From the NCBI GenBank assembly GCA_027717865.1, contig JALLOM010000005.1:1-33375 (forward strand): a stretch of 33,375 bases of DNA, in the 5' to 3' direction. A program made the translations under genes and the position numbers. Of this stretch, positions 13,698 through 32,263 are shown piece by piece. The notes beneath the pieces were generated by a model. That model did no database searches. It saw nothing but the letters and a program-made list of their open reading frames with translations, and had not been told where the DNA came from. Within the stretch, counting starts at the first letter, position 1. Each line of letters starts with the position of its first letter. The DNA is from Acidobacteria bacterium AH-259-O06 (GTDB taxonomy: Bacteria; Acidobacteriota; UBA6911; RPQK01; JADFOI01).

Positions 13698-13841
13698 ATG
13701 AAATCACTGTATCGAGGCCATCGTTTTCCACCCGAAATCATCAGCCACGCCGTTTGGCTCTACTACCGCTTCACCCTCAGCTTTCGAGACGTGGAGGATC
13801 TGCTGGCGGAACGAGGGATAAACGGGTCAAGAGAGGGTTAA
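13698..13841 (+). pseudogene. IS6-like transposase N-terminal remnant
   Basis: MKSLYRGHRFPPEIISHAVWLYYRFTLSFRDVEDLLAERGI, truncated at about 13820. Confidence 0.85.
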
Positions 13842-14235
13842 GAAGCGGGTGAGGCTGAGTTGGAGGGAAAATGGAAGTCCCAGAAGATGATCCATCGATT
13901 CTACCTATTCCTGGGTCTCGTGGACTGGTTTCCAGACGGGCGTTCCATGGGTGGCGAGAGTTGAGAGCAGGGTTCGAAGTAGTGCCAAGATCATGTCGGC
14001 CAATGATGAGCGAGGTCGGGCCTAAGTTCAATGAGCTCAGGCGGTACGGAATAAATAGAAACATTTCCACGAAGGACGCCCGGCTGTGCATTACTCCGGA
14101 CTCGTCTTTCACCTCGCCAGCTAAGATGCCTACCAAAATATTGATTGTCTTGAAAATAAGTGGTCACAAGAATATCCTGGTTGCATAAGCATTACAGAAG
14201 CTTAATTTTGGAGCGTCTGTAACTTCAAAAAGTCG

Positions 14236-17200: not shown

Positions 17201-20025
17201 TCGGGGAAATTTCTTCCGTCAAGGCATGGGGCTATTGCTTCGCAGCCATGACGGAACACCAACGCCAGCATCTAATCGCTTGGTCTAAAGCAATGAAAAG
17301 CCTTGGTAAAGGAACCGGGAAGTATGCACCGATGCACCGTCGAGCCGCAAGAGAGCACATGGCGGAGTGCCGCACAGCAATTCCCGCATGGATTATGCCC
17401 TTGTATCGTGTGGCTGAGACAATGCGGCCTGGAAAAGACTTGTTCGACGTCGCTATCATTGATGAGGCGAGTCAATCTGGACCTGAAGCTTTGCTCCTCA
17501 CATATCTAGCGAAAACAATTGTAGTGGTAGGCGATGACAAGCAAATCGCTCCGGAGTTTGTTGGAATCGATCGCGAAGATGTTAACCAATTGAGATTACA
17601 GCACATCAGCACATTACCTCATAATGATCAATATGGTGTCGATAATAGTTTCTTTGATCTGGCAGAGATTCGTTATCAGGGTCGAATCCGACTTCGTGAG
17701 CACTTCCGATGCATGCCTGAAATCATCCAGTTCTCAAATAACCTATGCTATAAGACCCAGCCGTTAATCCCCTTGAAACAATATGGTCTAGCTCATCTAG
17801 AACCGGTCGTTGGCACCCGGCACGTTTCAGACGGATACTTAAAGGGTGTCAGGAATCGCGTCAACCCTCCAGAAGCAAACGCTATTGTGGCTGCGATCAT
17901 TGAGTTATGTGGAAACCCGGCTTATCGCGACAAAACTGTCGGTGTCATTAGCCTTCTAGGGTACTCTCAGGCTCAGCTCATCGAAAGAACCCTGCTTGAG
18001 CGGTTGGGTCCGGAAACAATGGAACGACGACAAATCGTTTGTGGTGACGCCTATGCATTTCAAGGGGACGAGCGGGACGTAGTTTTCCTGAGCTTAGTAA
18101 GTGCACCAGTGGAGGGCAGGAGAATCAGAACTCTGGCAAGTGCTCGAGACGAACGCCGTTTTAACGTAGCTGCCAGTAGAGCCCGTGACCAGCTGTGGCT
18201 ATTCCACACAGCAACTCTAAACGATTTGAGTCCCAATTGCCTTCGCTACAAACTTTTGGAGTATTGTCAAAATCCTACTGTCCAAACAACAAGTCTTGCA
18301 GGTGTCTCGATGAAAGACCTTCGGCGCCTCGCTGCTTACAGTGACCGCCGACAAACTCCTCAGCCTGATCCATTCGATTCATGGTTTGAGGTTGATGTGT
18401 TTCTCAAAATCGTGGACCGTGGATATCGAGTGATTCCACAATATTCCATTGCGAACAAATGGATTGATCTTCTAGTTGAGGGGATGGATGGGCGGATTGC
18501 AGTGGAATGCGATGGGGACCACTGGCACGGACCTGAGGAATACGAAAAGGACACGGGTCGGGAGCGAATGCTTAGACGATGTGGTTTGGTTTTTTGGCGA
18601 ATAAGAGAAAGTGTTTTCAGACTCGATCCTGACAAGGCGATGGAGAGTCTTTGGGAAAAGCTGGAACGCTATAAAATCTTTCCGAAGGGTCATGTGGCTA
18701 CAGGTGTAGGAGAAGATGGCAAGAAAACGGGCGACTTTGCTAATGATACTGACACCACTGCGCGGTCGGAGACAGTGGAAGGCCAGTTGAATCTTGCCAG
18801 AAGCGGTGAACAACCGGCCAAGTTAAGACCAACTATCTCAGAGGAAGCTGACGAACAGTTGCCTGAATCTATAACGGGAATGGAGTCAGAGAGAGCTATT
18901 GGTTTATTGCATCCCTATCGAAATTGGAATGCTCATCCTCTTGAAGATCCTCGGCAGGGACCCCCGCCTTCTCTTATTCCGGGACTTCTTGAGATCATCG
19001 CTGAGGAAGGGCCAATGTTTGCCTACAGGGCCTTTCAACTCTATGCGCGGGCCGCCGGAATCCTACGGATCCAGAAACCGCTCAAAACTCGATTCGAACA
19101 AGCATTGACTGAGGCAATTCGCCGCGGAGATGTGCTAGACCGCGAAGAAATTGGAAAAACGATCGTTCGGAGGGCTGAAACCCCAGCGGTGGTGCTCAGA
19201 GAGCGAGGTGATCGAACCTTTCAAGAAATCCCTCCATTTGAAATTCTGAAGTTAATGGGTGAACTCGAAAAATCAAACCCTGAATTGGACAAGAAGAGGC
19301 TATTTAGACAGGTGTGTGAACATCTAAGTATTCGTCGACTTACAAAAGGGATACACCAAAGTTTTTCGGAAATCTATCATGAATTTGAAGTGAATTCCGG
19401 CCGTTCCACCGAACGAGAAGATTCAATAGAAGGCATTGAAAACAATACTAAATTTGAGTTAGTTCAATCTCCGACAGGAGATACAGTAAGGAACGAATCT
19501 CCCTCTGTTGAGCTTCAGCCATATGTAGAGTGGGAGTCACATCCTTTGCCTGATCCTCGAGACTCAATTAGCAGCGACATTATTAGTGGTCTTGTTGAGA
19601 TTATTGCTGCCGAAGGTCCAATGTTAGCCTACAGGGTCTTTCAGTTGTACGGAAAGGCTGCTGGGATACAGAGAGTGAGAGAATCTCTTCGGATCCGGTT
19701 TGAGGAAAGCTTAGCAAGAGCTATAAAGATTGGATTGATTGAGGAAGAAACGGAAGGTGGCAAGCAGGTAGTCCGTAAAGCAGGTGCACCCAAGGTCATC
19801 TGGCGAAGAAGGGCCAGCAGACGGTTCCATGAAATTCCACAGAGTGAGATCACAGAACTATTAAAGACAATCCGAGAGATCAACTCAACTTGGGATCGTG
19901 AGACTTTATACAGAGAGGTGATTAGATATCTGGAAATTGGACGTTTGACGGCAAGTGTTCGTAGTACTCTAGACAGGATATGTTCGGACATAGAGATGGA
20001 AGAGAAAAATAGTGAAGAGCGTTAA
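14236..20025 (+). CDS. Giant UPF1-like (SF1) helicase with DUF559/Vsr-like nuclease and two tandem DUF3320-like C-terminal modules; candidate single-gene defence protein
   Basis: Walker A LVQGPPGTGKSHT; Walker B IIDEASQSGPEALLL; VVGDDKQIAPEF; GDAYAFQGDERDVVFLSLV and FNVAASRARDQLWLFH; nuclease WFEVDVFLKIVDRGYRVIPQYSIANKWIDLLVEGMDGRIAVECDGDHWH; two related C-terminal modules. Confidence 0.9.
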   Translation: MTNGVSAQEEAIRNQGIALFTFLKELTQLRTRTIRDIDQYDEILWFSEIPREPQCHCSTWYKGAEGGTSDAWLEVHKPELRPPPDPGTELSPWLVMGQIEDSSGDFPELRSEISVENEIGEERQFERRRIEEYPQIKELWESYIESAWWPWAEVDRRLQAVQRVYTRLFSIYQKQQRLGEQYEVVLGLGLLSWKTSEGHHIRRHIVTAQTDLQFELSRGIISVGPAGEGANLALEQDMLDPKFRPDVNELNAFEGQLKEIGDDIWNGVNLESLLSSWIHAVSPSGTFEDSLLASPGVAEEPRLHWAPAILLRKRSERSFLKAFEEILRQLESDTPVPNGVAQFVSVTSDSEGTQNSLGTSQQNGDSGELYFPLESNEAQRQIIERLQSHQGVLVQGPPGTGKSHTIVNLVCHLLATGQRVLVTSHTARALRVLRHYIQEKVPAIAPLAVVVLGDDRESLQAMEESVQGITDRHNYWEPTESDKLIVRLEEELDTTRRDEASVLGNLRSIREAETYVHPRIFENYEGTLQRIATRLHGDSDKYSWFTDTLSDDAELPLRPAELSELLSLLRDGELASDRLHDDVIDPENLEPPETVTQLIRDETEMRRKFDAAESARNHPGYPGLRKASSEVRQNLSKKLLALVHNSDRVTRHIQPWTKKAVTEILGDRDRAWRHLFETTKAATAKIGDRARWVDSTTVTGLEKRDYSIVRADAQALLTHLERGGRWGFGPFRPNPVKNGLYLIKGIRLDGQLCNKLHLLQELVHWLVARQQIIILQKIWKPYTEVPQGTVSDQVAHYEDMCEPLEEAISLHSEKKEIQELIPGIPGLSEPTWHELESLQSLLAASKAVDLELDLLEATRQLDEVAETYESLFDLASSVEVRCLVDAVRGRDGGTYAQQYSSITKRHTARLSRLRRDDLLTRLASGAPLLAKAVSETPEEVVWDERIENLNLAWNWSKAVRWINRMCDSQAEEQLRLQLDEARNRAQKRLGEISSVKAWGYCFAAMTEHQRQHLIAWSKAMKSLGKGTGKYAPMHRRAAREHMAECRTAIPAWIMPLYRVAETMRPGKDLFDVAIIDEASQSGPEALLLTYLAKTIVVVGDDKQIAPEFVGIDREDVNQLRLQHISTLPHNDQYGVDNSFFDLAEIRYQGRIRLREHFRCMPEIIQFSNNLCYKTQPLIPLKQYGLAHLEPVVGTRHVSDGYLKGVRNRVNPPEANAIVAAIIELCGNPAYRDKTVGVISLLGYSQAQLIERTLLERLGPETMERRQIVCGDAYAFQGDERDVVFLSLVSAPVEGRRIRTLASARDERRFNVAASRARDQLWLFHTATLNDLSPNCLRYKLLEYCQNPTVQTTSLAGVSMKDLRRLAAYSDRRQTPQPDPFDSWFEVDVFLKIVDRGYRVIPQYSIANKWIDLLVEGMDGRIAVECDGDHWHGPEEYEKDTGRERMLRRCGLVFWRIRESVFRLDPDKAMESLWEKLERYKIFPKGHVATGVGEDGKKTGDFANDTDTTARSETVEGQLNLARSGEQPAKLRPTISEEADEQLPESITGMESERAIGLLHPYRNWNAHPLEDPRQGPPPSLIPGLLEIIAEEGPMFAYRAFQLYARAAGILRIQKPLKTRFEQALTEAIRRGDVLDREEIGKTIVRRAETPAVVLRERGDRTFQEIPPFEILKLMGELEKSNPELDKKRLFRQVCEHLSIRRLTKGIHQSFSEIYHEFEVNSGRSTEREDSIEGIENNTKFELVQSPTGDTVRNESPSVELQPYVEWESHPLPDPRDSISSDIISGLVEIIAAEGPMLAYRVFQLYGKAAGIQRVRESLRIRFEESLARAIKIGLIEEETEGGKQVVRKAGAPKVIWRRRASRRFHEIPQSEITELLKTIREINSTWDRETLYREVIRYLEIGRLTASVRSTLDRICSDIEMEEKNSEER

Positions 20026-20155
20026 AGAGTAATCTTGTGCCATTTTCCAACGCCTCTCCTTGGTCTCGAATACTTTCATGAATACTTAGATTAGGTATTC
20101 CGCAAAAGGAGCAAACGCGGAGAGGCTTCACGGGCTAAACCCCACATGATTAAAA

Positions 20156-20180
20156 GTGTAGTCAATAGCGTAATGAAATG
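20156..20180. repeat. Diverged copy of E2-type arm repeat inside the right end of E1
   Basis: GTGTAGTCAATAGCGTAATGAAATG, two mismatches from GTGTAGTGAATAGCGTAGTGAAATG at 31934. Confidence 0.65.
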
Positions 20181-20235
20181 AGCGGGCAGATGTGGGTCTG
20201 CGAGGTCGAAAAGAAGGCCCCTACCGCGTGTTTTT

Positions 20236-20255
20236 TGGAACCAATATGGAACCAA
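20236..20255. repeat. E1 putative arm-type site TGGAACCAATATGGAACCAA (right)
   Basis: Identical to 7270-7289. Confidence 0.8.
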
Positions 20256-20312
20256 TTCCTAGAAACCCGCTGAGCGGCTTGGCAAAATATAACTGTACAG
20301 GATTGATTGTAT

Positions 20313-20389
20313 TGGTGGAGACGATGGGATTCGAACCCACGACCTCCTGAGTGCGATTCAGGCGCTCTTCCGAACTGAGCTACGTCCCC
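20313..20389 (-). tRNA. tRNA-Ala (anticodon CGC), complete, CCA encoded
   Basis: GGGGACG acceptor pairing with CGTCTCC, G3:U70 alanine identity pair, loop ATCGCAC with anticodon CGC, GTGGG-TTCGAAT-CCCAT T-arm, ACCA end. Confidence 0.97.
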
Positions 20390-21495
20390 ACACTTTTGTT
20401 TTCAACGGCTTGCGGCAATTCTGTAACTTCGGGATTTTCGGGTGTAGTGAATAGCGTAGTGAATTGAATCGATTCAATTGACTTCACTTTGTGCTCATCG
20501 GCGGGGTTGGCATAGCGTTTAACCATGTCCAGCCGCTTCCATCCTCCAAGTTCCATTACCGTGATCAGATCCACTTTTCCTTCTGTAACCAGGCGTGTGG
20601 CGAACGTGTGCCGCAAGTCGTGAATCTTTAAGTTGGAGATTTTAGCACGTTCGCAGGCCGTTTCAAACATGGTGCGGATGTCCTTCAGGCGGCTTGTAGG
20701 GTCGTGCTTTTTGGTGAACACCCACTCACACCTGCTTCGGGCCATTTGAGCCTTGAGCGGCTGAATCAGCTCCTTTCGCAAAGGTATGGTGTATTCCATT
20801 TTATTCTTTGCCTGAGCTGACCTGGCGATCAAATAGCCGCCGGTCAGGTTGATGTCGCTCTTTTTCAGGTGGAGGATTTGTGATTTCACCCGCAAACCAA
20901 CATAGATCCCGAGCAGGATGATTGTTCTGAGCCGCTCAGAAGCGACTGCTAGGAACTGTGTTTCTTCATCTCTGGACAGGGCACGCTTTCGCTGATTCTC
21001 TTCAAACCGTTCAAGCCCTATAGTGGGATTCACGCCCTCAAACTTTTTCTCTTTGATGCACCAATTGATCAGTCTGCTCAAACAGGCCATTTCCCGGTTA
21101 AAGCCGATCCGCGCCTTTTCGCGCTTGAGCCGGTACTTCTTGAGCAGGAATGGGTGAATTTTGCTGAGCATTTTCCCATTGAAGGATTTTTTGAGTTGAA
21201 CAATGTTTTCACGGTAGGACTTGACGGTTTTAGGCCTGAGCTTGCCGATCTTGATCAGCTCTTCCATGGCAGCCAGAAACAGCTTGGCCGCGTCGTCAAA
21301 TTTGATGTCCTTTTTCTTCCGTCCGATTCCGGCCTCGCCCTTCAGAATGGCCGCCCGTTTGACCTGAGCGATCTCACGGGCGACCGTCTTGTTGATATTG
21401 CGTCCCAGGCGTTCCTGGTAGCGTTGGCCATCATGCCGGAAGTCGAGGCACCAAGTCTTACCCCTCAGATAAATTCCATCTCCACGTCTAGCCAT
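20380..21495 (-). CDS. Tyrosine recombinase/phage integrase whose stop codon lies inside the tRNA gene
   Basis: MARRGDGIYLRGKTWCLDFRHDGQRYQERLG...LLGIYVGLRVKSQ...IHDLRHTFATRL...LGGWKRLDMVKRYANP; GGAGG upstream of the ATG at 21495; TAG at 20380-20382. Confidence 0.93.
   Translation of the reverse strand: MARRGDGIYLRGKTWCLDFRHDGQRYQERLGRNINKTVAREIAQVKRAAILKGEAGIGRKKKDIKFDDAAKLFLAAMEELIKIGKLRPKTVKSYRENIVQLKKSFNGKMLSKIHPFLLKKYRLKREKARIGFNREMACLSRLINWCIKEKKFEGVNPTIGLERFEENQRKRALSRDEETQFLAVASERLRTIILLGIYVGLRVKSQILHLKKSDINLTGGYLIARSAQAKNKMEYTIPLRKELIQPLKAQMARSRCEWVFTKKHDPTSRLKDIRTMFETACERAKISNLKIHDLRHTFATRLVTEGKVDLITVMELGGWKRLDMVKRYANPADEHKVKSIESIQFTTLFTTPENPEVTELPQAVENKSVGT
20442..20463. repeat. 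E2 putative arm-type repeat GTGTAGTGAATAGCGTAGTGAA (left)
   Basis: Identical to 31934-31955; contains GTAGTGAA twice with 12-bp period. Confidence 0.75.
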
Positions 21496-21517
21496 TTTTC
21501 CTCCTTTTTCTTTACAA

Positions 21518-21682
21518 TCAGTCGAGATAGCCCAGCCTATATTCACCCCTCATGCCCGGCCCCTCAGCATCCAGGCCATGAGAAACACGGACGTTTCCCG
21601 CGAGGCCGTGGCCCCCTTTCAGGATGAGGTTGTCCATCGCCTCTGCGGCCCGCTGCATAACCTTCACGATATCGGTCTGCAT
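21518..21682 (-). CDS. Possible small protein upstream of integrase
   Basis: MQTDIVKVMQRAAEAMDNLILKGG...YLGYLD-type 54-aa ORF; short, no SD checked. Confidence 0.3.
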   Translation of the reverse strand: MQTDIVKVMQRAAEAMDNLILKGGHGLAGNVRVSHGLDAEGPGMRGEYRLGYLD

Positions 21683-21764
21683 TCATCCATCGGAGCAAGC
21701 CAGACGACCCGGAAGGCTGTTCTCTGGACACACGTCGAGACTGGTGCAAAGTGCATCTCATGAG

Positions 21765-21780
21765 CTGACACCGGTGTCAG
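21765..21780. promoter_or_regulatory. 16-bp perfect palindrome CTGACACCGGTGTCAG
   Basis: Shares GACACCGGTGTC with 5457-5478. Confidence 0.5.
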
Positions 21781-22015
21781 AACCTCCCCTGGAGGTGTTG
21801 GGTGTCCTAAGCATCCTTCAGGCCCGCTTTCTCACCAAAAACAAAGCCCCCGCGTCCACTGGTGAATCCCTTCCAGGCTGTCACGCGAAGAAAGGCAGCA
21901 AAAGCGAGGGCGATTTCTATTTTGACATAGGGATCTGAGATTCACTAAGTCTCCTTCCTTCACGTGACACCTATCATGTTACACTCGACCCCCGACAATG
22001 GCAACAAAAATCCCC

Positions 22016-22432
22016 TCAAATGGTCCCTTCGCTGGAATAGTGGACGGCCATTTTGTCTAAAAGTGGAACATTTGTTCCAGCTTGCACACCCTCTTCCCGA
22101 CTAAATTCTTTTGAATCAGTGGTTTCTTCTTCCCTTTTTTCATCAAGTGGAACATTTGTTCCAATATCGTTCTCGATTGTTGTATGACTCGTCCCCAAAA
22201 TCTCTGCAATTCCTCTGGTACTCTCTCCATCCTCAGCAAGTTCACGTGCAGCTTGGCGACGTTCTGGAATGGACATTTTTATGAACTGGCCATGTTCTAG
22301 TTCCTGCTTAGCCTCGATTATCCGTCGTCCAGTCTCGATGATCGATTCAATGCTGGAGCGCCAAGATCTCAGTTTACTGAAGGAGATGGTACGGTTAACC
22401 GTACCCGTCGCACCGCCCGATTCCCCATCCAA
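22016..22432 (-). CDS. DUF3102-like / helix-turn-helix DNA-binding protein
   Basis: SIESIIETGRRIIEAKQELEHGQF...ERRQAARELAEDGESTRGIAEILGTSHTTIENDIGTNVP. Confidence 0.6.
   Translation of the reverse strand: MDGESGGATGTVNRTISFSKLRSWRSSIESIIETGRRIIEAKQELEHGQFIKMSIPERRQAARELAEDGESTRGIAEILGTSHTTIENDIGTNVPLDEKREEETTDSKEFSREEGVQAGTNVPLLDKMAVHYSSEGTI
22061..22079. repeat. AAGTGGAACATTTGTTCCA dyad, copy 1
   Basis: Identical to 22145-22163; TGGAACA-TT-TGTTCCA. Confidence 0.65.
22145..22163. repeat. AAGTGGAACATTTGTTCCA dyad, copy 2
   Basis: Identical to 22061-22079. Confidence 0.65.
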
Positions 22433-22996
22433 GCACTGAAAGAGCTCCGTAGAATCCCGCTGGGCCTGTCTTCAAAAGCTGTTTGCACTGCCGAAATCCC
22501 GCAAATTCCCTTTTCGTCAAAATATGGCTCAGGTTTGCGAGAGAACTTCGCCGAGAATGGCGCTCATTGAACGAACGGCAAAAAGCAAGGGTAAGGGGTA
22601 GAGGCCGTTTCAATGCATTCAAGGTTAAAATCCTACCCAGGCTAGGCCTGCAAATCCGGTTGATCGGCGTGGCCCCGAATATCACCTGGGGTTTATAAGT
22701 CCCTTTCCTGCGCCGAATGCCACAACTTGCCGAATGATCATCGGGATGTCACCCAAGCCCCCTCCTAGCCTTTGGAACTCGTTGAAAATATTAAGAGCTT
22801 GCCTCCAAAGGGGCCAGGGGGCCCCAGGGGGAAGCATGGGTTGAAAGAATTTTAAAAGACCCTGCTTCCCCACCCCCGAAAGGAGGGTTCGGGAGTTGGG
22901 CCCCCGGCCTCATTCTTAGGCGACCCGGCGCAGGTCTAAACGCCGGGCCGCCCTCGCCATAGCAAAGGCCACCCTTATGGATGACACGTTTGCCCT

Positions 22997-23023
22997 GCGC
23001 CCTGGGCGGACACCACAGGGCGC
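22997..23023. repeat. Hairpin GCGCCCTG...CAGGGCGC downstream of the E2 late-gene cluster
   Basis: 8-bp perfect stem, 11-nt loop. Confidence 0.4.
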
Positions 23024-23107
23024 GCGTTCCCCAACCCGGCCAAATTACGTGTTATGACTCACGTAGGGCGGGACCGCCCGCCCAGCCCGCCAGGGAAACT
23101 CAAAAAA

Positions 23108-23773
23108 CTACGAAGCGAGACGTTCTCGCGCATATTCCAGCCAGAGCTGCGGTTCCCGCGTCACGGCTTCGCTGAAGCCCTCGGCCAGCGACTCGACTTC
23201 GCCAGTAGCCACCAGCTGCTGTGCGCGCTTTTCGATGCGCGCATAAGCCACGCCGCCTTCGAAAACCGGCTCCGGCTTCTCCTTCTTCACTCGCTCGCCC
23301 TCTGGGATCATCTTCGAGTGGGAGACAATCGGATCCCCTCTCTTGCTCAGAAGAAATTCACCCATAGTCTCCTCTTCGGACTCCTCGGCCTTCTTCAAGG
23401 CAGCCATCAGCTCCTGCCGATCCGAGAACCCGCTGCGCTTGATGCGCTTCAAAATTTCATCGTAATTCAATTTTTCACCTCCAATCTCGTCCAAAATTTC
23501 ATAAGTTTCATTGATCGTTTCGTGGACCTCCTCGATCTGCTTTTTAACCTTTCCACTTTCGGTGAGCATCAGCCACAGTTGTTGACCGCGCTGTGTCGAT
23601 CGAACGACTTCAGCTAGGGCTGCCTGTGGTGTCAGTTTGGCTCTCTGGCTGCCCGTGGCCTTCCATTTAGCGCGCTCGCTTTCAACGAATTTCACAAGGG
23701 CTTCCCAAAGGGCTTTCACGAGGCCCCCGGAATCCTCGAGATCCTCAGGCAGCTCCAGAGCGTTCGTACTCAT
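23108..23773 (-). CDS. Hypothetical, possibly phage-structural-associated protein
   Basis: 221 aa, ATGA-coupled to the upstream gene. Confidence 0.6.
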   Translation of the reverse strand: MSTNALELPEDLEDSGGLVKALWEALVKFVESERAKWKATGSQRAKLTPQAALAEVVRSTQRGQQLWLMLTESGKVKKQIEEVHETINETYEILDEIGGEKLNYDEILKRIKRSGFSDRQELMAALKKAEESEEETMGEFLLSKRGDPIVSHSKMIPEGERVKKEKPEPVFEGGVAYARIEKRAQQLVATGEVESLAEGFSEAVTREPQLWLEYARERLAS

Positions 23774-24519
23774 GCCGCTGTTTCCCTTCGTGTTTGTGGC
23801 TTCTCATGCTCCTCGGCGGTTTCCTCGGGGGATAGAATTTCCGCCAAAGGCTTCACCTGGCCGTCGCGTAGAAAAGTACTTATATTTTCGAGGCCGGCGC
23901 CCTCGACGTGATCGAAATTCAACAGTCGCAGATGCATCACCAAATGTGCGCTTAAAGTCCTGCGCAGGCTCAGATACGGACGCCGCAACTTCACACCTCG
24001 AGTGTCCTCGATGAACTCGAGGATTTCGCCCATGGGGCGCGCCAGCGCCAGGGCTTTCTCGTATAGTTCCAAAAGCTCCACCACGATCCTGTCAATAGCC
24101 GGAGTGAGTGCAAGAATCTCCCTAAATCCGCGTTCGTACTGTTCACGTAGCTCGCGTTGGTGCGCCTCTGCTGACTCGTTTCGAAGTGTGTTTAATTTGC
24201 CTTCGCACTCAGTAACGGCGATTCGTAAGTCTTCACGCTCGCGACCGGCAAGAAACCAAGAATCATTTAGTTTCGCCAACTCTTTTTGGGCCTTCTCACT
24301 CCCAACTTTGGCCATTAGGACAATGTTTTTACGCTTCTGTTCAGCCTCGGCTTCAACTCGCTCCGCCTGCTCGAGGTCGGCTCGAAGTTTTTGTTGCTTC
24401 ATTGTCCAGTCTTGGATGTTTTTCTTAATCGTTGCTGATTTTTGTATTCTCATTCCTTTCCCCTCTTCTGAATTGTCGCCTGCGGGCGACTTTTTCTCAC
24501 TGTTCGTAACTCCTATCAA
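23770..24519 (-). CDS. Coiled-coil protein of unknown function
   Basis: 249 aa, Lys/Glu-rich helical N-terminal half, coupled overlaps on both sides. Confidence 0.65.
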   Translation of the reverse strand: MIGVTNSEKKSPAGDNSEEGKGMRIQKSATIKKNIQDWTMKQQKLRADLEQAERVEAEAEQKRKNIVLMAKVGSEKAQKELAKLNDSWFLAGREREDLRIAVTECEGKLNTLRNESAEAHQRELREQYERGFREILALTPAIDRIVVELLELYEKALALARPMGEILEFIEDTRGVKLRRPYLSLRRTLSAHLVMHLRLLNFDHVEGAGLENISTFLRDGQVKPLAEILSPEETAEEHEKPQTRRETAA

Positions 24520-24881
24520 ATGCTCCTGGCGAATCTCCTAAAAGCGACGATGTCGAAACTGACCGCACTCGGAATCGAGGCTCCGCTGCTGCAATTGCCC
24601 CAGCCGATCCGAAGCGCGTTTGCCGCATTGACCCGATAATCGGCCATGAACAATCCGGAAGCCAAAGCCGTTTTAGGGTGAACGATCACCAGATCACCAC
24701 TGGCCAGGCTCAGGGCCGTTAGGCCGGTTGTATAGGATCTTTCCTCGATCGAGTTGGCGGCGACGCTTGAAGTTTCCGGATTGATCGTAACCCCGCTGCC
24801 AAGACGCATGCCGCTCGTGCCGAGGGAATCCAGGCCCAGATCACCAAACAGAACCAAGCCCATAGATAATCTATTAGGCAT
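24516..24881 (-). CDS. Candidate small virion-associated protein
   Basis: SGVTINPETSSVAANSIEERSYTTGLTALSLASGDLVIVHPKTALASGLFMADYRVNAANALRIGWGN resembles short beta-rich phage proteins; inference from memory. Confidence 0.55.
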   Translation of the reverse strand: MPNRLSMGLVLFGDLGLDSLGTSGMRLGSGVTINPETSSVAANSIEERSYTTGLTALSLASGDLVIVHPKTALASGLFMADYRVNAANALRIGWGNCSSGASIPSAVSFDIVAFRRFARSI

Positions 24882-24961
24882 TTTAATTTTTCTCCTTTGC
24901 GGTTGTCTGTTGTTTTTTCATTCTTCTTCTTTTTTCGTCTCTTTGATTTTCATGAGTTCCA

Positions 24962-26440
24962 TTAGTCTCCGCCCCCGAGTGTCCAGTCCGGCGCGTTGTG
25001 TACTTTCCAAGCAGGCACGTAAGGCGCAAGCGGGATGCTCAACCTAGCCGGATCATAGCCACCCTGCTGCTGGTTCGCCAGCACCAGCGCGCCGGCGGCG
25101 GCGTTAATCACATCATCCCGCCCACCGGGCCCGTGGTCGATTGAGTCTTTGCCGCTCCTGCTCGTCCGACGTTCCAGATTACACAACTGAGAAATCAGTC
25201 TTTTATGGTGCAGCAACTCGATTTGCTCGCTATTCAAGAGCGGTAAAAATGCTATATAAATTTCACTCTTCGTCTTTTCGCTGGTTCTGTACTCAACCCC
25301 ATGAGATCTGAACTGCTCTCGCGGCCATTGCCCGGCGTATCTGTCGCCATGGATTGTGCTGATCCGATAGCGCTTGAGCAATTCGCAAAATTCAGAGACT
25401 ACCTGCTTTGGCGAAAACGGCGGCACCCTCTCGCGCACACAGTCAAGGGCAAGCTTGCCATTCTCACGGTGTGCAATCCCCAGGGTCATACTGTCCTGGC
25501 TGCCTCCGCTTGGATCACAGAATCCGAAGTATCGGATGCTCTCCAGAGGCGGCAACTCACGCCGATCAGGGAGAACCACGGCCTCGACCGCCTCGCTGTT
25601 GACGAATGATTCAATATCCCGCCGAAACTCGGCCAGCCACTCGGCCCGGGCTGCCGATTCGTCCTCTTCCAGCGCCTTCTGAATGACCGACTCAGGCACC
25701 GTGGGATTCATGTCTCGCGTCTCGCCCTGCCAGACCAGAATTTCACCGTCCTTGCCGAAATAGTTTTTGTAGGCTTTCCAAAGTTCGCCACGCCGAGCGT
25801 ATGGAGAGCTGAGAGCCAATAGCAGACTACCGGGAACTGTGGCCATACCGGGACGCAGAGCATTCAGGATTTCGGTGTCAGGATTCGCGGACTCCTCACT
25901 TCTCCAAAACGCTACTTCATCGAGCAGCGCAGCAATGATAGAGTAACCCCTTGTCGTCCTGTATGACGCCGTGTGGACCTCGATCACAATCCGGTTGTTC
26001 AGCTCGATTGACTCCTTCGTTTTGTTCGCGACCATGGCCGATAGCATGGGCACTCCGTCCAAAAAGCCAGAGACGTATCTGAGAATTACCCTCGCCTGCT
26101 TCCGATCCGCAGCAATCACCATAACGGTCCCGACCTCACCCGGCGCCAAGTGCTTCGAGTAGTCCTTAAAACAGGCCAAGAACACGGCCGTAAGCGCCGC
26201 TATGAGGCTTTTGCCGCCTCGCCTGCCCACTACCAGCCAGCCCTCGGAAACCGACGCCGGCGGCTTTTCTCGGCCGGTAAAGCGCTGGAGTGTCTCAAGG
26301 TCAGTCTTGCCCAGCTTCAACCCGAATAGCGCCTTGAGAAACACGCGCCAATTGCCCCAAGACTTACCCTTAAACCAGGACTTGAAGAGCGCCGGGTCGT
26401 TCATGGCGTCGATGATGGTGAGTGATTTAACAGTTTTCAT
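24962..26440 (-). CDS. Phage terminase large subunit
   Basis: GWLVVGRRGGKSLIAAL (Walker A), IIAALLDEVAFW (Walker B), YFGFCDPSGGSQDSMTLGI and GGRDDVINAAAGAL nuclease motifs. Confidence 0.9.
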   Translation of the reverse strand: MKTVKSLTIIDAMNDPALFKSWFKGKSWGNWRVFLKALFGLKLGKTDLETLQRFTGREKPPASVSEGWLVVGRRGGKSLIAALTAVFLACFKDYSKHLAPGEVGTVMVIAADRKQARVILRYVSGFLDGVPMLSAMVANKTKESIELNNRIVIEVHTASYRTTRGYSIIAALLDEVAFWRSEESANPDTEILNALRPGMATVPGSLLLALSSPYARRGELWKAYKNYFGKDGEILVWQGETRDMNPTVPESVIQKALEEDESAARAEWLAEFRRDIESFVNSEAVEAVVLPDRRELPPLESIRYFGFCDPSGGSQDSMTLGIAHRENGKLALDCVRERVPPFSPKQVVSEFCELLKRYRISTIHGDRYAGQWPREQFRSHGVEYRTSEKTKSEIYIAFLPLLNSEQIELLHHKRLISQLCNLERRTSRSGKDSIDHGPGGRDDVINAAAGALVLANQQQGGYDPARLSIPLAPYVPAWKVHNAPDWTLGGGD

Positions 26441-26505
26441 TAGACTTCCAGTAATGCCCGGAGTTTGTTTGACAACTCGATACACTCTTCAGGAGTCACG
26501 CTCAT
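26440..26505 (-). CDS. 21-aa micro-ORF coupled to the terminase gene
   Basis: MSVTPEECIELSNKLRALLEV, stop overlaps the terL start (TAATG). Confidence 0.35.
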   Translation of the reverse strand: MSVTPEECIELSNKLRALLEV

Positions 26506-26508
26506 TTG

Positions 26509-26994
26509 TTAATCCTCTTCGGGCCCGTATTCCCTTGCCAGGTAAGTCTGTAAGTCCTCAGCCGGCCGGGACCGCCTCTCCATGCCCAGCGTCACGAGAC
26601 ACCGCCGTTGCTCTGCGAGGAAAACCGAAAGCCTCGCTATTCCTGGTTGCAAATCCCACACATTATTCTGCTTGTTTACCTGAACAGCAGCCTCCGTTCT
26701 TAATAGGTAGTGCCATATCAGTAGCTCTGCCATTCGTGCCGATTTCCAATTGGCCACCATGAGCTTTTCCGCGCCGCTCATGTACGCTTCCCCGCCCTTA
26801 TCAGAAATCAATTCGCCGGCCTCAAGGTCTGCCAGCGCCGCGACCCGCTCCAGGTAAGCCGGTAGTGGCTTCCCTACCTCTAACCTCTTCAATGCCGGCA
26901 GTGCGCTCTTAGCCCGGTTTAAATTCCCTGGCTGCCCTCCAGGCTTTCTCCTTGCGTTCGTCTCACTCACGACTCTGCTTTCTCCAAAATCCAC
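26509..26994 (-). CDS. Candidate terminase small subunit
   Basis: 161 aa directly upstream of terL; begins with RRKPGGQPGNLNRAKS; position-based inference. Confidence 0.55.
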   Translation of the reverse strand: MDFGESRVVSETNARRKPGGQPGNLNRAKSALPALKRLEVGKPLPAYLERVAALADLEAGELISDKGGEAYMSGAEKLMVANWKSARMAELLIWHYLLRTEAAVQVNKQNNVWDLQPGIARLSVFLAEQRRCLVTLGMERRSRPAEDLQTYLAREYGPEED

Positions 26995-27019
26995 TCAAAA
27001 ACGACCTTTTTACGATTCA

Positions 27020-27042
27020 TTCACCTACGCTATTCACTACAC
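27020..27042. repeat. Inverted copy of the E2 arm-type repeat
   Basis: TTCACCTACGCTATTCACTACAC is the reverse complement of GTGTAGTGAATAGCGTAGGTGAA, one inserted base relative to 31934. Confidence 0.7.
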
Positions 27043-27290
27043 TCGTCTACCGCCTCACCCAAACCCTTATTCACACTGGCTTTCATAGACAAGGCGATTG
27101 TTTTCATATCATGTGCCTTATCACGTTCGTCCCTGGAGAATCGGTGGAGTGCAAGGCGTATTTCTGTGCGCCCCCACTTTTCAAAGTTGACGATAAGTTG
27201 ACGAAGTTGACGATAAGACGACTTTCCTAGGTTGTTTCTACATTCCGTCTCTTCTTGAGAGCTAATAGGGAAAGTCATCATATCGTCCAC
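27030..27290 (-). CDS. Hypothetical small protein
   Basis: 86-aa ORF downstream of the primase; overlaps iteron-like repeats. Confidence 0.4.
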   Translation of the reverse strand: MDDMMTFPISSQEETECRNNLGKSSYRQLRQLIVNFEKWGRTEIRLALHRFSRDERDKAHDMKTIALSMKASVNKGLGEAVDECSE

Positions 27291-27311
27291 TTTTCGGGGT
27301 TATCGTCAACT
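27185..27311. repeat. Iteron-like cluster (AGTTGACGA), candidate E2 replication origin
   Basis: AGTTGACGA at 27185, 27196, 27205; inverted TCGTCAACT at 27303; near match TCGTCCACT at 27283. Confidence 0.55.
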
Positions 27312-28853
27312 ATTTTGAAGTTTGACTCGCTTGCGTGCAGCGTTGCCACCGGCAGCAGAAGTTTTTTCAAATCCCTTCTCTTCCAACTGGAATGCGAACT
27401 TCCGTGAAGTTACTGGCTCCTCTGTGCGTTCCTTGCACCACTGGCTGTAATCCTCGTAGAGTTTAGCGAACAACGTAACAGCCACAGCATCGCTTTCGCA
27501 TCGTTCTTCAATCCATTGATGAAGAACATCCATCTCTTTACGGTACTCCTGAGTAGCTTCTGCGACGGCTTGGCAGTCCCCGAAACCTTCTCGTTGCCAC
27601 TCAAGACAACCTTGCACGATCCATGTTAGAATCCCCGCTCGCTCCTGCCAGAGTTGCTCGTCTAAATCGTCAACTCTCCGGCCATTTTCCTTTGTAAAAA
27701 CTGCGCAAAACGGAATGAGTGCGATGCGTCGCCACATTGCCAAACTGGTGTCTTCGACAATGGGGCGATGGTTGGTAGCTAACCACAATTTGTGCGTTGG
27801 CCAGAACTCGAAATAGTCGCGATTCATAAATCTGGCCTTAACGGGATCCCGGCCGGTGAGAGATTTCACCCGAGTGGCGTCCAGGCGCCGGTTCTCAGCG
27901 GTTTCAATGGCGGAACAGAATCGAGCCCCAAACAGGTCCGCCAGGATGGTGGGATGCGTGTCACCTCGTTTGTCTCGGCTGAGGAGCAGATCCGGAGCCA
28001 CTGCCTGAGCGTAATCTCCCAAGACTCGACGTACAGTGGACAGCATGGTTGACTTCCCATTACTGCCTGTGCCCCAGCAGATGATGAGGTCGTCTTCACG
28101 GGTGTTGCCGGTAGCCGAGTAGCCGGTTCGCCTTTTCACATACCGAATGAGCGTCGCATCCCCAGGGAAAAGTTCCTGCTGGAATTTCATCCAGCGGGGG
28201 GCATCAGTTTCGGGACGATAAACAGTGCCGGCTAGCTTAGTGAAATATAGGTCTGGCGAATGGGGGGACAGTTCTCCAGTTCGCAGATCGACCACCCCAT
28301 TTCCACAGTTCAAAAGCCAGGGATCGGTGTCAAAAATGCTAGGTTTGGCTAGAAGGTATCCCTTCGCCAAATCAATTACGTCCCGTAATCTCCGGCGACT
28401 CTGAATCTTCAGTGCCAACTTTGTGAGTTCTTTCCTTTGTGCCGCTTTTTTTAGTGCCTTTTGGGTGAAGAACTTGAAGAGCAGTTCCCCGGCGAGGCGA
28501 CAGGTTTCATGCCCACCCAGATCCTTGGCCCATCGCTGACCGTCGTAGGTAAGCCACCCCCACTGGGGCACGAAAAGACAACGACCGATGAGCAGGTCGG
28601 CAAGTAGTTGCGCGTTTGCCAAGTCTGTGAAGGATTCGCCTACTTTAATTTGGGTTTGCGCCGATCTGATGTTTATCCCCACACTCTCTTGCGTCGCATC
28701 CGGGGTTGATCTCACGATCTCACGGAATTGGTCCCAAGTGCCGTCCTTCTCTGGTTCTAGAATCTTTTCCGTGTCCTGTTTCTCGGGGGGCTTCAACCCC
28801 GACGCTCTTAGCACGTTTTTGTAATCCTCAATGTCAGCCAATTCCGTTGTCAC
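27306..28853 (-). CDS. D5/P4-family primase-helicase
   Basis: ICWGTGSNGKSTMLSTVRRVLGDYA, LFGARFCSAIETAENRRLD, KLWLATNHRPIVEDTSLAMWRRIALIPF. Confidence 0.93.
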   Translation of the reverse strand: MTTELADIEDYKNVLRASGLKPPEKQDTEKILEPEKDGTWDQFREIVRSTPDATQESVGINIRSAQTQIKVGESFTDLANAQLLADLLIGRCLFVPQWGWLTYDGQRWAKDLGGHETCRLAGELLFKFFTQKALKKAAQRKELTKLALKIQSRRRLRDVIDLAKGYLLAKPSIFDTDPWLLNCGNGVVDLRTGELSPHSPDLYFTKLAGTVYRPETDAPRWMKFQQELFPGDATLIRYVKRRTGYSATGNTREDDLIICWGTGSNGKSTMLSTVRRVLGDYAQAVAPDLLLSRDKRGDTHPTILADLFGARFCSAIETAENRRLDATRVKSLTGRDPVKARFMNRDYFEFWPTHKLWLATNHRPIVEDTSLAMWRRIALIPFCAVFTKENGRRVDDLDEQLWQERAGILTWIVQGCLEWQREGFGDCQAVAEATQEYRKEMDVLHQWIEERCESDAVAVTLFAKLYEDYSQWCKERTEEPVTSRKFAFQLEEKGFEKTSAAGGNAARKRVKLQNS

Positions 28854-29107
28854 TGTTCGAAAACCTTCTTGGGGACTCCGGGGTATCCGTCATAGAATTT
28901 TTTGGACTGCTTCAACTTCGCCTCATATTTGTCCAGCTCATCCCAGATAGTCTTTTCCGTTACCTGAATTCGGCTCTGCTGCAAAACATATGCATGAAAC
29001 TTGGTTAATTCCTCCATACGCTCTGCCATTTCATTGACCCTATCAAGCGCTTGATCCAACTGAACTGCCAGATTGATAACAAAACCCTCATCGACCTTAT
29101 CCCTCAT
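28850..29107 (-). CDS. Hypothetical helical protein
   Basis: MRDKVDEGFVINLAVQLDQALDRVNEMAERMEELTKF...; overlaps both neighbours. Confidence 0.55.
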   Translation of the reverse strand: MRDKVDEGFVINLAVQLDQALDRVNEMAERMEELTKFHAYVLQQSRIQVTEKTIWDELDKYEAKLKQSKKFYDGYPGVPKKVFEQ

Positions 29108-29321
29108 TTGCTCGCTCCAGATTCTCCACCGCCTCCTGAACCGAAACCCCTTCCAGCTGTTCCCACCACTCATCCAGTTCGTCTTTGGAAAAGTAGATCC
29201 TTGAACCTATCCGTCTGAACGGGACGGTTCTTCTATCCACGCAAGCTCGTAATGCCTTTTCGGTTTTATCTAGAAACCGCGCTGCTTTCTTGAGATCCAT
29301 AAGCTCTGCCTGGTCGCTCAT
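29097..29321 (-). CDS. Excisionase/MerR-like helix-turn-helix protein
   Basis: LMDLKKAARFLDKTEKALRACVDRRTVPFRRIGSRIYFSKDELDEWWEQ. Confidence 0.85.
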   Translation of the reverse strand: MSDQAELMDLKKAARFLDKTEKALRACVDRRTVPFRRIGSRIYFSKDELDEWWEQLEGVSVQEAVENLERANEG

Positions 29322-29583
29322 TTCGAATCGTCCCTGACATTCCTGAAGAGGTCAGATGCGGGCGCCTTCATAAGCTTCGCGATGAGTTCAGCTTCGGTTG
29401 CGGTGGGCTGGACCTTGCCGTTCCCTTTTCGATATTGTTTTTTGCCCGTGGCGAAACCCTCTTCGAGAGGTAGTCGATTACTAATTTTACGAGCTGGGGA
29501 TCGTTGACGGCTACGATTGGGAGGGCAGAATCGACATCCTCGCCCTCAAGAAGTGTAACGTAGAAATTCGGCTTTTTGTGCAT
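29318..29583 (-). CDS. Small protein requiring a -1 frameshift at A_AAA_AAC (29437-29443); 0-frame alone ends at 29368
   Basis: 0 frame MHKKPNFYVTLLEGEDVDSALPIVAVNDPQLVKLVIDYLSKRVSPRA; -1 frame after the heptamer KKQYRKGNGKVQPTATEAELIAKLMKAPASDLFRNVRDDSK*, ending in ATGA overlap with the next gene. Confidence 0.5.
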
Positions 29584-29629
29584 CACCCTCTTAAGGGCCG
29601 AAAAAACCGAAAAACGTATACAAGGGAAA

Positions 29630-30526
29630 CTAGATTTTTTTGAGGTAGGTCAAATTGCGGTGGATTGCCTGCTTTTCACTGGATGGCCTAGTCCGATTTT
29701 CTCGGGCTCGTTCTTTACTCGTAAAGCCTTGCGCCCAGAGATTCATTCGCCGTCGATCCAATGGCTTTAGTTTTGAAAGCATCTCTCCGAAGAGAATTTT
29801 GCGCTCGGGGTCTTGGATGGTCGGATCTTCGACTTCTATTATTAGGCGATCATCATCTTGCGATGATACTTTGTCGCGCCAAAAGCCTTCCTCAGAGAAG
29901 TAAAAATTCTCGTGCCCATTTGGGCATATCCCTTCTTGGCAGGGTTGCCTGCAGAGATTGCATTTGAGCTTGGAATCCTTGCGTGCCCGCTTATCCAGAA
30001 GCAATTTAAAGTATCGCACAACTTCCGGCCACAGCCATTTGTGAAAGTCTGCGACATTCAAATCTAGAGCATCACCCGAATTCTCCAAGGCCATTTTTAC
30101 CGCATTCATCGGGCAGAATTCTGTGACATACCTGACCAGGCTCAGATTGGCCCATAGGGGGTTTCCGGTCAGTGTTGTTTCATACCTTCTAAGATTTCGT
30201 ACCGCATCGCGCACCTCTGCGCTCTCGTGGGCACGGCGATTGTTGATAATGTATGGAATGCCTATTTTTCGTTGAATTTCTGGCCGAGTAATCAATGTCA
30301 CGATGTAAGGATCATCATCGGGGCGCAGCGTACCCTCGTGTATCATTAGCCCCATTGGGGAGCCGGTAGGCCAAGAGATTTCTGGAGTTTGAAGTACGAC
30401 GGGATTGAGCTCACACCCTCCAGAGTAAACTACCCGAAGATCGGGCAGAACCTCGGAATAGTGGCGCGGGCTTCTGCTAAGCAGTCGCTCGTGCTCAAAA
30501 TCCTGAGGTGTAATGATGGTTGCCAT
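29630..30526 (-). CDS. Unknown protein with zinc finger and C-terminal sigma-region-4/HTH-like segment
   Basis: CNLCRQPCQEGICPNGH; LKPLDRRRMNLWAQGFTSKERARENRTRPSSEKQAIHRNLTYLKKI; GGGAGG upstream of the ATG at 30526. Confidence 0.7.
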   Translation of the reverse strand: MATIITPQDFEHERLLSRSPRHYSEVLPDLRVVYSGGCELNPVVLQTPEISWPTGSPMGLMIHEGTLRPDDDPYIVTLITRPEIQRKIGIPYIINNRRAHESAEVRDAVRNLRRYETTLTGNPLWANLSLVRYVTEFCPMNAVKMALENSGDALDLNVADFHKWLWPEVVRYFKLLLDKRARKDSKLKCNLCRQPCQEGICPNGHENFYFSEEGFWRDKVSSQDDDRLIIEVEDPTIQDPERKILFGEMLSKLKPLDRRRMNLWAQGFTSKERARENRTRPSSEKQAIHRNLTYLKKI

Positions 30527-30596
30527 CAGCCTCCCACGCTGCCCCCACATTTAAAGGCCCAGCCGGGCGTGCTTCCCGCCTTATCAGGTTGGTGCT

Positions 30597-30893
30597 TTAC
30601 TTTTTTCTTGCCCTCTTCTTCGACGATTTCTTCTTTGGCAATCTCTTTCCCTCTGGATTAACCTTGCTCGCGTCAACTACCAAAGAGTTCTCCGATTTAA
30701 ACCGTTGAAGTCCCACCTTGACAACAGGAACCACAGCTGCTGGCAACAAATCGTCGTCCGTAGAACCAATATTTGCAGCTCTGATTCCAAATTCCATGTA
30801 AATACCCCAGAGGCCGTCATGGATATCTAATTTCCTTACCAGGGCTTCAGCAACCTCCTTATAGCTAAAAATATATTGTTTTATCTCAGCCAT
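30597..30893 (-). CDS. Hypothetical protein with basic C-terminus
   Basis: MAEIKQYIFSYKEVAEALVRKLDIHDG...LPKKKSSKKRARKK. Confidence 0.55.
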   Translation of the reverse strand: MAEIKQYIFSYKEVAEALVRKLDIHDGLWGIYMEFGIRAANIGSTDDDLLPAAVVPVVKVGLQRFKSENSLVVDASKVNPEGKRLPKKKSSKKRARKK

Positions 30894-31573
30894 GTTCCAC
30901 ATCCTCTCGACAAGAAAGGTGTAGCTTCCCCATATGCCTCCCCTTGCACTCCACCAACACCTCCCACCAGTTCGAATGCTTCCACATTTGGTTCTCCTGC
31001 TATTTCTTCCCAGTGAAGCTCGTTTGATTGCAACCGCACCTGATTTGTTGGAGGTTGCGGAGATGCTAGCGGTAGGCCCTCAAGTTGTTGCCCAGTACCG
31101 TAAGTTAAAGCGAAAACCTGTGAAAAAAGTTTCTGTTGATAAAGGACTTGAAAGTTGGCAAGCATTCTGAATGTTTCGCTCGCTTGTTGTTCAAGTTCCT
31201 GTAGAAAATCGTAGGAACCAGCTCTGGTCGCAATACTAGTTACTATGAATTGATTCAAACTTACACCGTCACGCTGTGCCATCTTCACCGCCTGCTTGTG
31301 AAGACTCTTTGGAAGGCGCAAGGCGACCCGCCCAGAGTAACCATCCGATGAAAATGGTGCAGGAATTTTGAGCTCTTGTTCCAAAGCCGACTTTACCCAA
31401 TTAAAAGCCGCCTCTTCTAAATTACAATAGGCCTCTTCGCAGGCATTTCCTTCAGAAAAACACCCACGGAATTCGAGAATCTCCGCTGTGTAGCCACCGC
31501 GTTCATCAGGTCTTAAGACTCTGGAATATGGAAGTTGGAGAATGCTTTTTACCTTTTCATCGGACGCTTTCAT
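30881..31573 (-). CDS. hicB: HicB-like antitoxin, extended
   Basis: VLRPDERGGYTAEILEFRGCFSEGNACEEAYCNLEEAAFNWV plus ribbon-helix-helix-like GRVALRLPKSLHKQAVKMAQRDGVSLNQFIVTSIA. Confidence 0.85.
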   Translation of the reverse strand: MKASDEKVKSILQLPYSRVLRPDERGGYTAEILEFRGCFSEGNACEEAYCNLEEAAFNWVKSALEQELKIPAPFSSDGYSGRVALRLPKSLHKQAVKMAQRDGVSLNQFIVTSIATRAGSYDFLQELEQQASETFRMLANFQVLYQQKLFSQVFALTYGTGQQLEGLPLASPQPPTNQVRLQSNELHWEEIAGEPNVEAFELVGGVGGVQGEAYGEATPFLSRGCGTWLR

Positions 31574-31576
31574 TTT

Positions 31577-31867
31577 TTATTTGTCCTCCAAGTTGAAAAG
31601 TTCTTCTTCCCAAGTTAACACGTCGTCATCGAAAACATCGCAAATGCTGTGAACCGTTCCTTTTTTCAAGACTCCATGATGGGGTATGCTCAAAGGAATC
31701 CAGCCTTTCTCCTCGTTCACAAACGTGGGTTCTTTCCCCTTCGAATCATCTCTCTTCCGCCCTAGTTTCGTTGCAATACTCACAAGCTTACGATGATGAA
31801 TGTTTCCAGCACCCTGCCGTGCCTGCGCTATCTGTTTCTTGATCTTCTCCAGCTTCTTCGAGGTCAT
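31577..31867 (-). CDS. hicA: HicA-like toxin
   Basis: LEKIKKQIAQARQGAGNIHHRKLVSIATKLGRKRDDSKGKEPTFVN...PLSIPHHGVLKKGTVHSICDVFDDDV directly upstream of the hicB-like gene. Confidence 0.75.
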   Translation of the reverse strand: MTSKKLEKIKKQIAQARQGAGNIHHRKLVSIATKLGRKRDDSKGKEPTFVNEEKGWIPLSIPHHGVLKKGTVHSICDVFDDDVLTWEEELFNLEDK

Positions 31868-31890
31868 GATAGCGTATATGATATCATGAC
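31863..31890. promoter_or_regulatory. Putative HicAB operator, 9-bp inverted repeat overlapping the hicA start codon
   Basis: GTCATGATA (31863-31871) ... TATCATGAC (31882-31890). Confidence 0.6.
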
Positions 31891-31933
31891 GTCAAGAGTG
31901 TTTGTCAGTTTCGCATGGGCGAGCAATTCTGGC

Positions 31934-31955
31934 GTGTAGTGAATAGCGTAGTGAA
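31934..31955. repeat. E2 putative arm-type repeat GTGTAGTGAATAGCGTAGTGAA (right)
   Basis: Identical to 20442-20463. Confidence 0.75.
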
Positions 31956-31960
31956 ATGCA

Positions 31961-32000
31961 CGGGGAAAACAGGGGAATTGTGGGGAACTGTGGGGAAAGC
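31961..32000. repeat. Four 10-bp phased repeats nGGGGAAnnn
   Basis: cggggaaaac aggggaattg tggggaactg tggggaaagc. Confidence 0.7.
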
Positions 32001-32038
32001 CTCGACTGGCTCAAATCCTTACCAATCAAGGCTTTCCC
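31993..32038. repeat. 10-bp inverted repeat GGGAAAGCCT...AGGCTTTCCC at the E2 right end
   Basis: Arms 31993-32002 and 32029-32038; followed by TTTGCTTT. Confidence 0.55.
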
Positions 32039-32072
32039 TTTGCTTTCAGGCAGTTAGAAAAAGGTCCGAAAA

Positions 32073-32117
32073 CTGAGTGCGATTCAGGCGCTCTTCCGAA
32101 CTGAGCTACGTCCCCAC
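32073..32117 (-). other. att site: displaced 5' half of tRNA-Ala(CGC)
   Basis: 45 bp identical to 20347-20391, ending at the anticodon stem-loop. Confidence 0.95.
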
Positions 32118-32129
32118 TGGAGAAGCTTG

Positions 32130-32157
32130 ATTTTACCACTTGCAAGCACAGGGACAA
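32130..32157 (-). promoter_or_regulatory. Probable native promoter of the tRNA-Ala gene, now upstream of the truncated 5' half
   Basis: Minus strand TTGTCC - 16 nt - TAAAAT, 14 nt before tRNA +1. Confidence 0.5.
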
Positions 32158-32263
32158 AGAAGGACAAAGAAGGGCAGCCGTGAGGGGAAATCCGGCGCGA
32201 TTTTTTAAACCTGCTCGCTCTGTGCGGCAGAACCGGATCCTGCGCTCTGAGGTGGAACACATC

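Follow-up and report, generated by a model that had tools for sequence, protein, structure and literature searches.

Gene content and limits of the element

The window analysed here, the first 33,375 nucleotides of contig JALLOM010000005.1 of Acidobacteria bacterium AH-259-O06 (assembly GCA_027717865.1), harbours a unidirectional integrative element, hereafter E2, of 11,726 bp (the distance between its repeat copies), which spans positions 20347-32117 and encodes its own terminase. All E2 genes are situated on the minus strand, several with 4-bp overlaps, and about 89% of the element is covered by the listed open reading frames (ORFs; Table 1). An initial annotation made from the sequence alone had proposed a phage satellite of about 11.7 kb at 20380-31867; the size holds, while the true element is longer than these limits. 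Equally, profile matches were found for the proposed integrase, helix-turn-helix (HTH) protein, large terminase subunit (TerL) and HicA/HicB pair (HicA under the cut-off), and the three small genes described as coupled, p221, p249 and p121, indeed overlap by 4 bp. The proposed D5/P4-like primase-helicase is recovered as a D5-type helicase; its frame is restricted to the C-terminal half, which holds the helicase, and aligns with the PHROG profile from about position 380 onwards, and a P4-alpha-like primase half was not seen in the PHROG profile alignment. As anticipated, no E2 protein searched with the Pfam and PHROG profiles matched a capsid, portal, tail or neck family, with the same libraries detecting portals and capsids in relatives of E2 as positive control. 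The largest products without a family are of 306, 249 and 221 amino acids (aa). Broken reading frames were not noticed in E2, the frames of integrase, helicase and TerL being intact.

Table 1. Features of E2 and its integration site (window coordinates; a dot marks features without strand)
Feature	Position	Strand	Evidence or remark
attL-side 45-bp repeat	20347..20391	.	E2-borne tRNA-Ala 5' half; 15-bp core CTGAGTGCGATTCAG at 20347-20361
attR-side 45-bp repeat	32073..32117	.	displaced chromosomal tRNA-Ala 5' half
intact tRNA-Ala(CGC)	20313..20389	-	ARAGORN; 3' half from neighbour E1, 5' half from E2
21-bp repeat, left end	20443..20463	+	candidate integrase arm site; variants 20157-20177 and 27021-27041(-)
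21-bp repeat, right end	31935..31955	+	exact copy of 20443..20463
tyrosine integrase, 388 aa	20380..21546	-	PF00589 8e-26; PHROG_1 3e-52
HTH / DUF3102-like, 138 aa	22016..22432	-	HTH_38 4e-5, DUF3102 5e-4, both under Pfam cut-off
p221, candidate particle-assembly factor	23108..23773	-	no family; L051 homologue
p249, scaffold-like candidate	23770..24519	-	AlphaFold2 long helical hairpin; L051 homologue
p121, small, strongly conserved	24516..24881	-	L051 homologue 84% identical
TerL, 507 aa	24962..26485	-	PHROG_2 1e-21
candidate small terminase subunit (TerS, p161), 161 aa	26509..26994	-	position and alignment of 19 loci
86-aa ORF	27030..27290	-	no family match
D5-type primase-helicase, 515 aa	27306..28853	-	D5_N 1e-27; PHROG_2478 4e-107
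107-aa ORF, start codon uncertain, overlaps next gene	28850..29173	-	ORF only
AlpA/excisionase-like HTH, 74 aa	29097..29321	-	HTH_17 2e-9; PHROG_66 4e-6
72-aa ORF	29368..29586	-	no family match
p306, putative regulator, 306 aa	29630..30550	-	no family; CxxC...CxxxxH and C-terminal HTH-like stretch, by eye
101-aa ORF	30597..30902	-	no family match
HicB-type antitoxin, 230 aa	30881..31573	-	PF05534 1e-9
HicA-type toxin, 96 aa	31577..31867	-	PF07927 1e-4, under Pfam cut-off; 3 bp from hicB

The limits of E2 are set by an exact 45-bp repeat of the 5' half of tRNA-Ala(CGC) on either flank. The 3' half of this tRNA gene is also repeated exactly, over 49 bp (7092-7140 and 20313-20361), and delimits the neighbouring element E1. 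A 15-bp core occurs in three copies in the window (7126, 20347 and 32073) and in a single copy (10443) in the empty site of a congeneric genome (G282, locus L051), where the tRNA gene is uninterrupted. Left of the core L051 matches window positions 6999-7140 at 94%, and window positions 32073-33375 are 97.5% identical to L051 10443-11737; these flanks and the single core lead to the conclusion that E1 and E2 are adjacent insertions in one tRNA gene. The 21-bp repeats just inside both ends of E2, with four matches in the window versus none in 100 shuffles, look like integrase arm sites. As a separate observation, the sole intact tRNA-Ala(CGC) copy at the site (20313-20391) is a host gene assembled entirely from the halves of two mobile elements.

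Terminase and packaging-linked genes

Besides the PHROG assignment, the Pfam TerL_ATPase profile scores E2 TerL at 8e-5, just under the cut-off, and a profile built from 15 TerL sequences reaches solved terminases in the PDB with E-values of 3e-4 to 2e-3. The Walker-A-like GRRGGKS, the DE motif and the acidic residues of the nuclease are all kept in the family alignment. The adjacent p161 has no family match. Proteins of 118-178 aa are located directly 5' of terL in 19 loci, p161 included; a C-terminal 'LGL-R...DL-YL' is common among them and their identity to p161 in the 19-locus alignment is 12-43%, so that considering p161 a TerS is reasonable but indirect. The large and probable small subunit of the initial annotation are in this way both retained, the former by profiles and the latter by position and family alignment.

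In L051, p161-p121-p249-p221 flank, in the same order, a TerL that shares only 31% identity with E2 TerL, and p161-terL-p121-p249-p221 is therefore regarded as a unit with exchangeable TerL. The L051 block adjoins a different replication protein (Toprim/AAA_25); its p249 homologue is 65% identical and its p221 homologue 39% over 155 columns, while the C-terminus of p221 is also common to a further locus, L033. Judged by gene order, p161-p121-p249-p221 travel as a packaging-linked block. Profile searches of 23108-24881, part of the check suggested at the outset, gave no family for p221, p249 and p121, and structure prediction of p249 and p121 gave a hint for p249. Its AlphaFold2 model is an all-helix hairpin (residues 18-71 and 75-170) with a predicted local distance difference test score (pLDDT) of about 90 over much of residues 30-120, while the model of p121 (pLDDT 32) is too low in confidence to use. 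Foldseek returned no match for p249 at E <= 0.001, helical matches being uninformative, and a weak PADLOC match (4e-4) in a coiled-coil region was rejected. Equally, weak matches of p121 (E about 0.006-0.009), most with internal stops, were attributed to chance, and profile searches of p121, p221 and p249 gave no Sid/Psu-type match. The predicted p249 structure is compatible with a scaffold-like protein, though as evidence this is weak; a tentative role of p249 in the particle draws on its helical form and on protease or scaffold genes found in the same place in some relatives.

E2 TerL is 74% identical to a full-length copy in its own genome, at L033, with a ratio of nonsynonymous to synonymous differences (pN/pS) of 0.30. 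Compared to L051, pN/pS amounts to 0.19 for p121, 0.29 for p249, 0.58 for p221 and 0.52 for p161, with synonymous sites saturated or near-saturated (dS > 1 for p121 and p249). By these ratios terL, p121 and p249 are under purifying selection, strongest on p121. The second terL locus, L033 (G000:C465, 2316-19900), has AlpA, a ParB-like gene and a helicase other than that of E2 and is devoid of p121 and p249; the ends of the L033 element were not found, nor were recognised head genes by its terL.

Relatives carrying the TerL family

Of 297 genomes sampled from the phylum, 24 carry the TerL family, which is also present in 55 IMG/VR contigs and six plasmids. Many relatives are small and consist of an integrase or recombinase, a replication helicase, TerS-TerL and, adjoining terL, a protein of 190-320 aa that is helix-favouring by composition. 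In other relatives TerS-TerL is accompanied by one or two genes for phage assembly, such as a tape measure (3e-57) and neck protein (1e-23) in L040, a tape measure (3e-195) in the plasmid pDJL3, a tape-measure piece (2e-12) and a Mu-like protease (5e-29) in Rctr16k, and DUF2213 (2e-34) in the plasmid pKNA06, with a L068 protein grouped with this DUF2213 scoring as head maturation protease (2e-65). The complete circles L067 (9,338 bp) and L070 (9,705 bp) possess a tape measure and no head set. A terminase without a head set characterizes the complete replicons L067, L070, pKNA06, pDJL3 and Rctr16k and is encountered in chromosomal islands as well. The Roseomonas plasmid L055 was dropped as a complete example, its terL being cut to 169 aa before a transposase-like gene. 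The circles L078 (9,422 bp) and L093 (8,117 bp), which combine TerL with an HK97-type capsid protein, were dropped as head-less examples for this reason; no remaining ORF in either is big enough for a portal.

A terL together with a tail tape measure, and no portal found, occurs in L040, L066, L067, L070, L073, L077 and L078; these elements or contigs are small and integrase-bearing, except for L078, in which no integrase was identified. For a satellite, possession of a tape measure points to control over tail length or the entry of DNA. The 25.8-kb Komagataeibacter plasmid pKNA06 (L054) is apparently a head-to-tail dimer of a unit of about 13 kb with terL and DUF2213.

Full phages with a portal also carry this TerL family. 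In a TerL tree of 78 rows, a quick build with many weak forks, loci with and without a portal are interspersed, the state changing at least six times among the 56 scored rows. A portal was assigned to 20 of these 56 by profiles grown from six seeds, whereby several rows are near-duplicates and the portal of incomplete portal-less loci may lie more than 4 kb away. Among the relatives without a head set, Rctr16k (KX853514) is circular, of about 17 kb, with an integrase, a replication gene and a TerL; it stems from a virus preparation, was sequenced at 219x depth and is annotated with 'no head proteins' (PMC5099504). With a TerL that shares only 27% identity with E2 TerL, Rctr16k supports the kind of element and not E2 itself.

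A probable helper-dependent satellite and its alternatives

The source genome is a metagenome-assembled genome (MAG), 73% complete. Neither the portal (PF04860 / PHROG_12) nor the capsid (PHROG_10) profile found a match in its assembled 3.6 Mb, the same searches being positive in control genomes, and E2 is therefore no fragment of an adjacent prophage. The helper may be a prophage that is absent from the assembly or went unrecognised, or it may be external. In agreement with what is generally expected of a satellite, E2 is att-bounded, encodes its own integration and replication genes and lacks a full particle gene set. The perfect att repeats, the empty site, the intact frames, the selection, the packaging-linked block and the recurrent layout together make it likely that E2 is a helper-dependent satellite, which packages itself by its own terminase into borrowed heads. 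The initial proposal, an element of satellite size that has a terminase of its own but lacks a head set, is thereby supported by a complete, att-bounded E2 and a layout that recurs in many elements.

In such a life cycle, the integrase recombines the 15-bp core in the anticodon stem-loop of tRNA-Ala(CGC), with the tRNA restored by the E2-borne 5' half, as the sequence of the site shows. Excision would be mediated by the AlpA-like factor together with the integrase, and the excised E2 would replicate by its own D5 helicase. Subsequently, its own TerS/TerL would cut E2 DNA and pump it into proheads via the portals of a helper tailed phage, a step suggested by an intact TerL in an element with no portal or capsid. 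More tentatively, p121, p249 and p221 might adapt or remodel the borrowed particle. HicAB, as judged from its family, would stabilise the island.

Several points weigh against a helper-dependent satellite. The host is an incomplete MAG with no recognised helper prophage; homologues of p121 and p249 are absent from 50,697 phage records and from IMG/VR; the TerS call draws on position plus a weak family pattern; Rctr16k resembles E2 more in its layout than in its sequence; and a TerL without a cognate portal must dock on a foreign one. An improbable alternative is the deletion remnant of an ordinary prophage which kept terS-terL and lost its head and tail genes. Full phages, too, encode a TerL of this family in the vicinity of portals, and a deletion could leave behind terL with a few unknown genes after it, but such decay is at odds with perfect att repeats, dense coding without a noticed broken frame, purifying selection on terL, p121 and p249, a head-less layout in complete circles and plasmids of unrelated bacteria and a further terL of this family in the same genome, likewise lacking recognised head genes. 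In particular, the selection and the exchangeable-TerL block in L051 speak against a remnant, and portal or capsid genes, intact or decayed, were not found near E2 terL. Of the two findings named at the outset as fatal to the satellite proposal, a deletion remnant and a capsid/portal set revealed by structure prediction, neither has emerged.

Just as improbable is a very small autonomous virus with head proteins too divergent to recognise. In its favour, p121, p249 and p221 are orphans, the first of them strongly conserved (84%), yet no set of leftover genes has the size to encode both an HK97-fold shell and a portal: the prediction for p249 is helical, p306 reads as a regulator and p121 has just 121 residues, while relatives carry differing assembly genes in this place and not one conserved capsid. 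Slightly less probable still is an integrative plasmid-like island that transfers otherwise, with a terminase which, as cargo or domesticated, has ceased to act in packaging. Relatives are indeed listed as non-mobilizable plasmids, and the assembled genome has no recognisable helper prophage. Against such an island, members of the family preserve the order terS-terL, genes for a phage tape measure, neck protein or prohead protease have been added in relatives, and Rctr16k was recovered from a virus preparation.

Extending the helper-dependent satellite beyond E2, it is conceivable, with somewhat less than even confidence, that E2 is one of a large cross-phylum class of terminase-anchored satellites of 8-17 kb. 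Each would combine a portable TerS-TerL of one family with one or two interchangeable assembly parts, be it a helix-rich protein, a prohead protease or scaffold, a tape measure or a single capsid protein, and would encode no portal. Its motor would engage the portal of a helper, and the added part would serve to rebuild the particle, tail length included.

Comparison with known satellites

Capsid-forming phage-inducible chromosomal islands (cfPICI) and Mulch/Flayer resemble E2 in the possession of their own TerS and TerL and in their need of a helper for missing particle parts (PMC10690885). They encode, however, the head with major capsid, portal, scaffold/protease and connectors, while in E2 TerS and TerL (TerS by alignment only) are accompanied by no recognised capsid, portal, protease or connector. 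Phage-inducible chromosomal islands (PICI), including Staphylococcus aureus pathogenicity islands (SaPI), share with E2 the size, a tyrosine integrase, a primase and, in some, their own TerS, and encode particle-redirecting proteins such as SaPIbov5 Ccm (PMC8569155). E2 accordingly has the integrase, replication/primase gene, AlpA-type regulator and small size of a PICI; on the other hand, PICI/SaPI are described in the literature to use the TerL of the helper, whereas E2 has its own.

P4-like satellites and Pseudomonas AH14b, of about 11-17 kb and without structural genes, have an integrase, an AlpA-like regulator and a primase/helicase; E2 has an integrase, an AlpA-like regulator and a D5-type helicase, the latter covering only the C-terminal half of the PHROG profiles. 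In AH14b no terminase was found (PMC4936722), so AH14b was rejected as an example of the same layout, and E2 is without a Sid/Psu-like match. Phage-inducible chromosomal minimalist islands (PICMI) are equally small satellites without head genes, but have no identifiable packaging genes (PMC10803314) and a fis-proximal site, in contrast to the TerL and tRNA-Ala site of E2. Escherichia coli RepA_N satellites are, like E2, tRNA-proximal islands with incomplete phage structural genes (capsid, decoration, tape measure); as they lack terminase genes, E2 is their mirror image (PMC10448857). Rctr16k shares the integrase, replication gene, TerL and absence of annotated head proteins (PMC5099504), and differs in its Mu-like protease, tape-measure piece and distant TerL.

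E2 thus fits none of the compared satellite definitions (cfPICI, PICMI, AH14b, E. coli RepA_N) in full; it probably works like a satellite. Some tycheposons carry terminase and capsid genes. Satellites in the literature consulted are either without TerL or have TerL together with the head. A TerL without a portal implies a motor working on the portal of another phage, which bears on the specificity of terminase-portal docking. As the TerL family spans phyla and its members are often annotated as plasmids or phages, the class may sit mislabelled in databases. Isolates with relatives exist in Methylobacterium (Methylobacterium sp. 4-46), Komagataeibacter (K. nataicola with pKNA06) and Rhodococcus (R. 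qingshengii with pDJL3), which makes the idea testable.

Neighbouring element and further observations

E1 (7092-20361), in the same tRNA, encodes an integrase (7316-8554), a Prim-Pol/DUF3987 primase-helicase (10802-13150) and a helicase-nuclease of 1,929 aa (14236-20025), which matches PADLOC PDC-S37 (5e-67), Mokosh-like helicase parts and the MTES_1575 nuclease (2e-24). By this gene content, E1 is possibly an anti-phage defence island.

The 69 bp directly upstream of the E2 integrase (21547-21615) are, inverted, 98.6% identical to L051 8797-8865, a segment to the left of this tRNA site in the congeneric genome; this identity is far above the approximately 70% of the shared genes. Within the frame of the 138-aa HTH gene (22048-22163), the inverted repeat TGGAACAnnTGTTCCA is encoded twice, as the peptide GTNVPL, and its copies are perhaps binding sites of the 138-aa protein itself.

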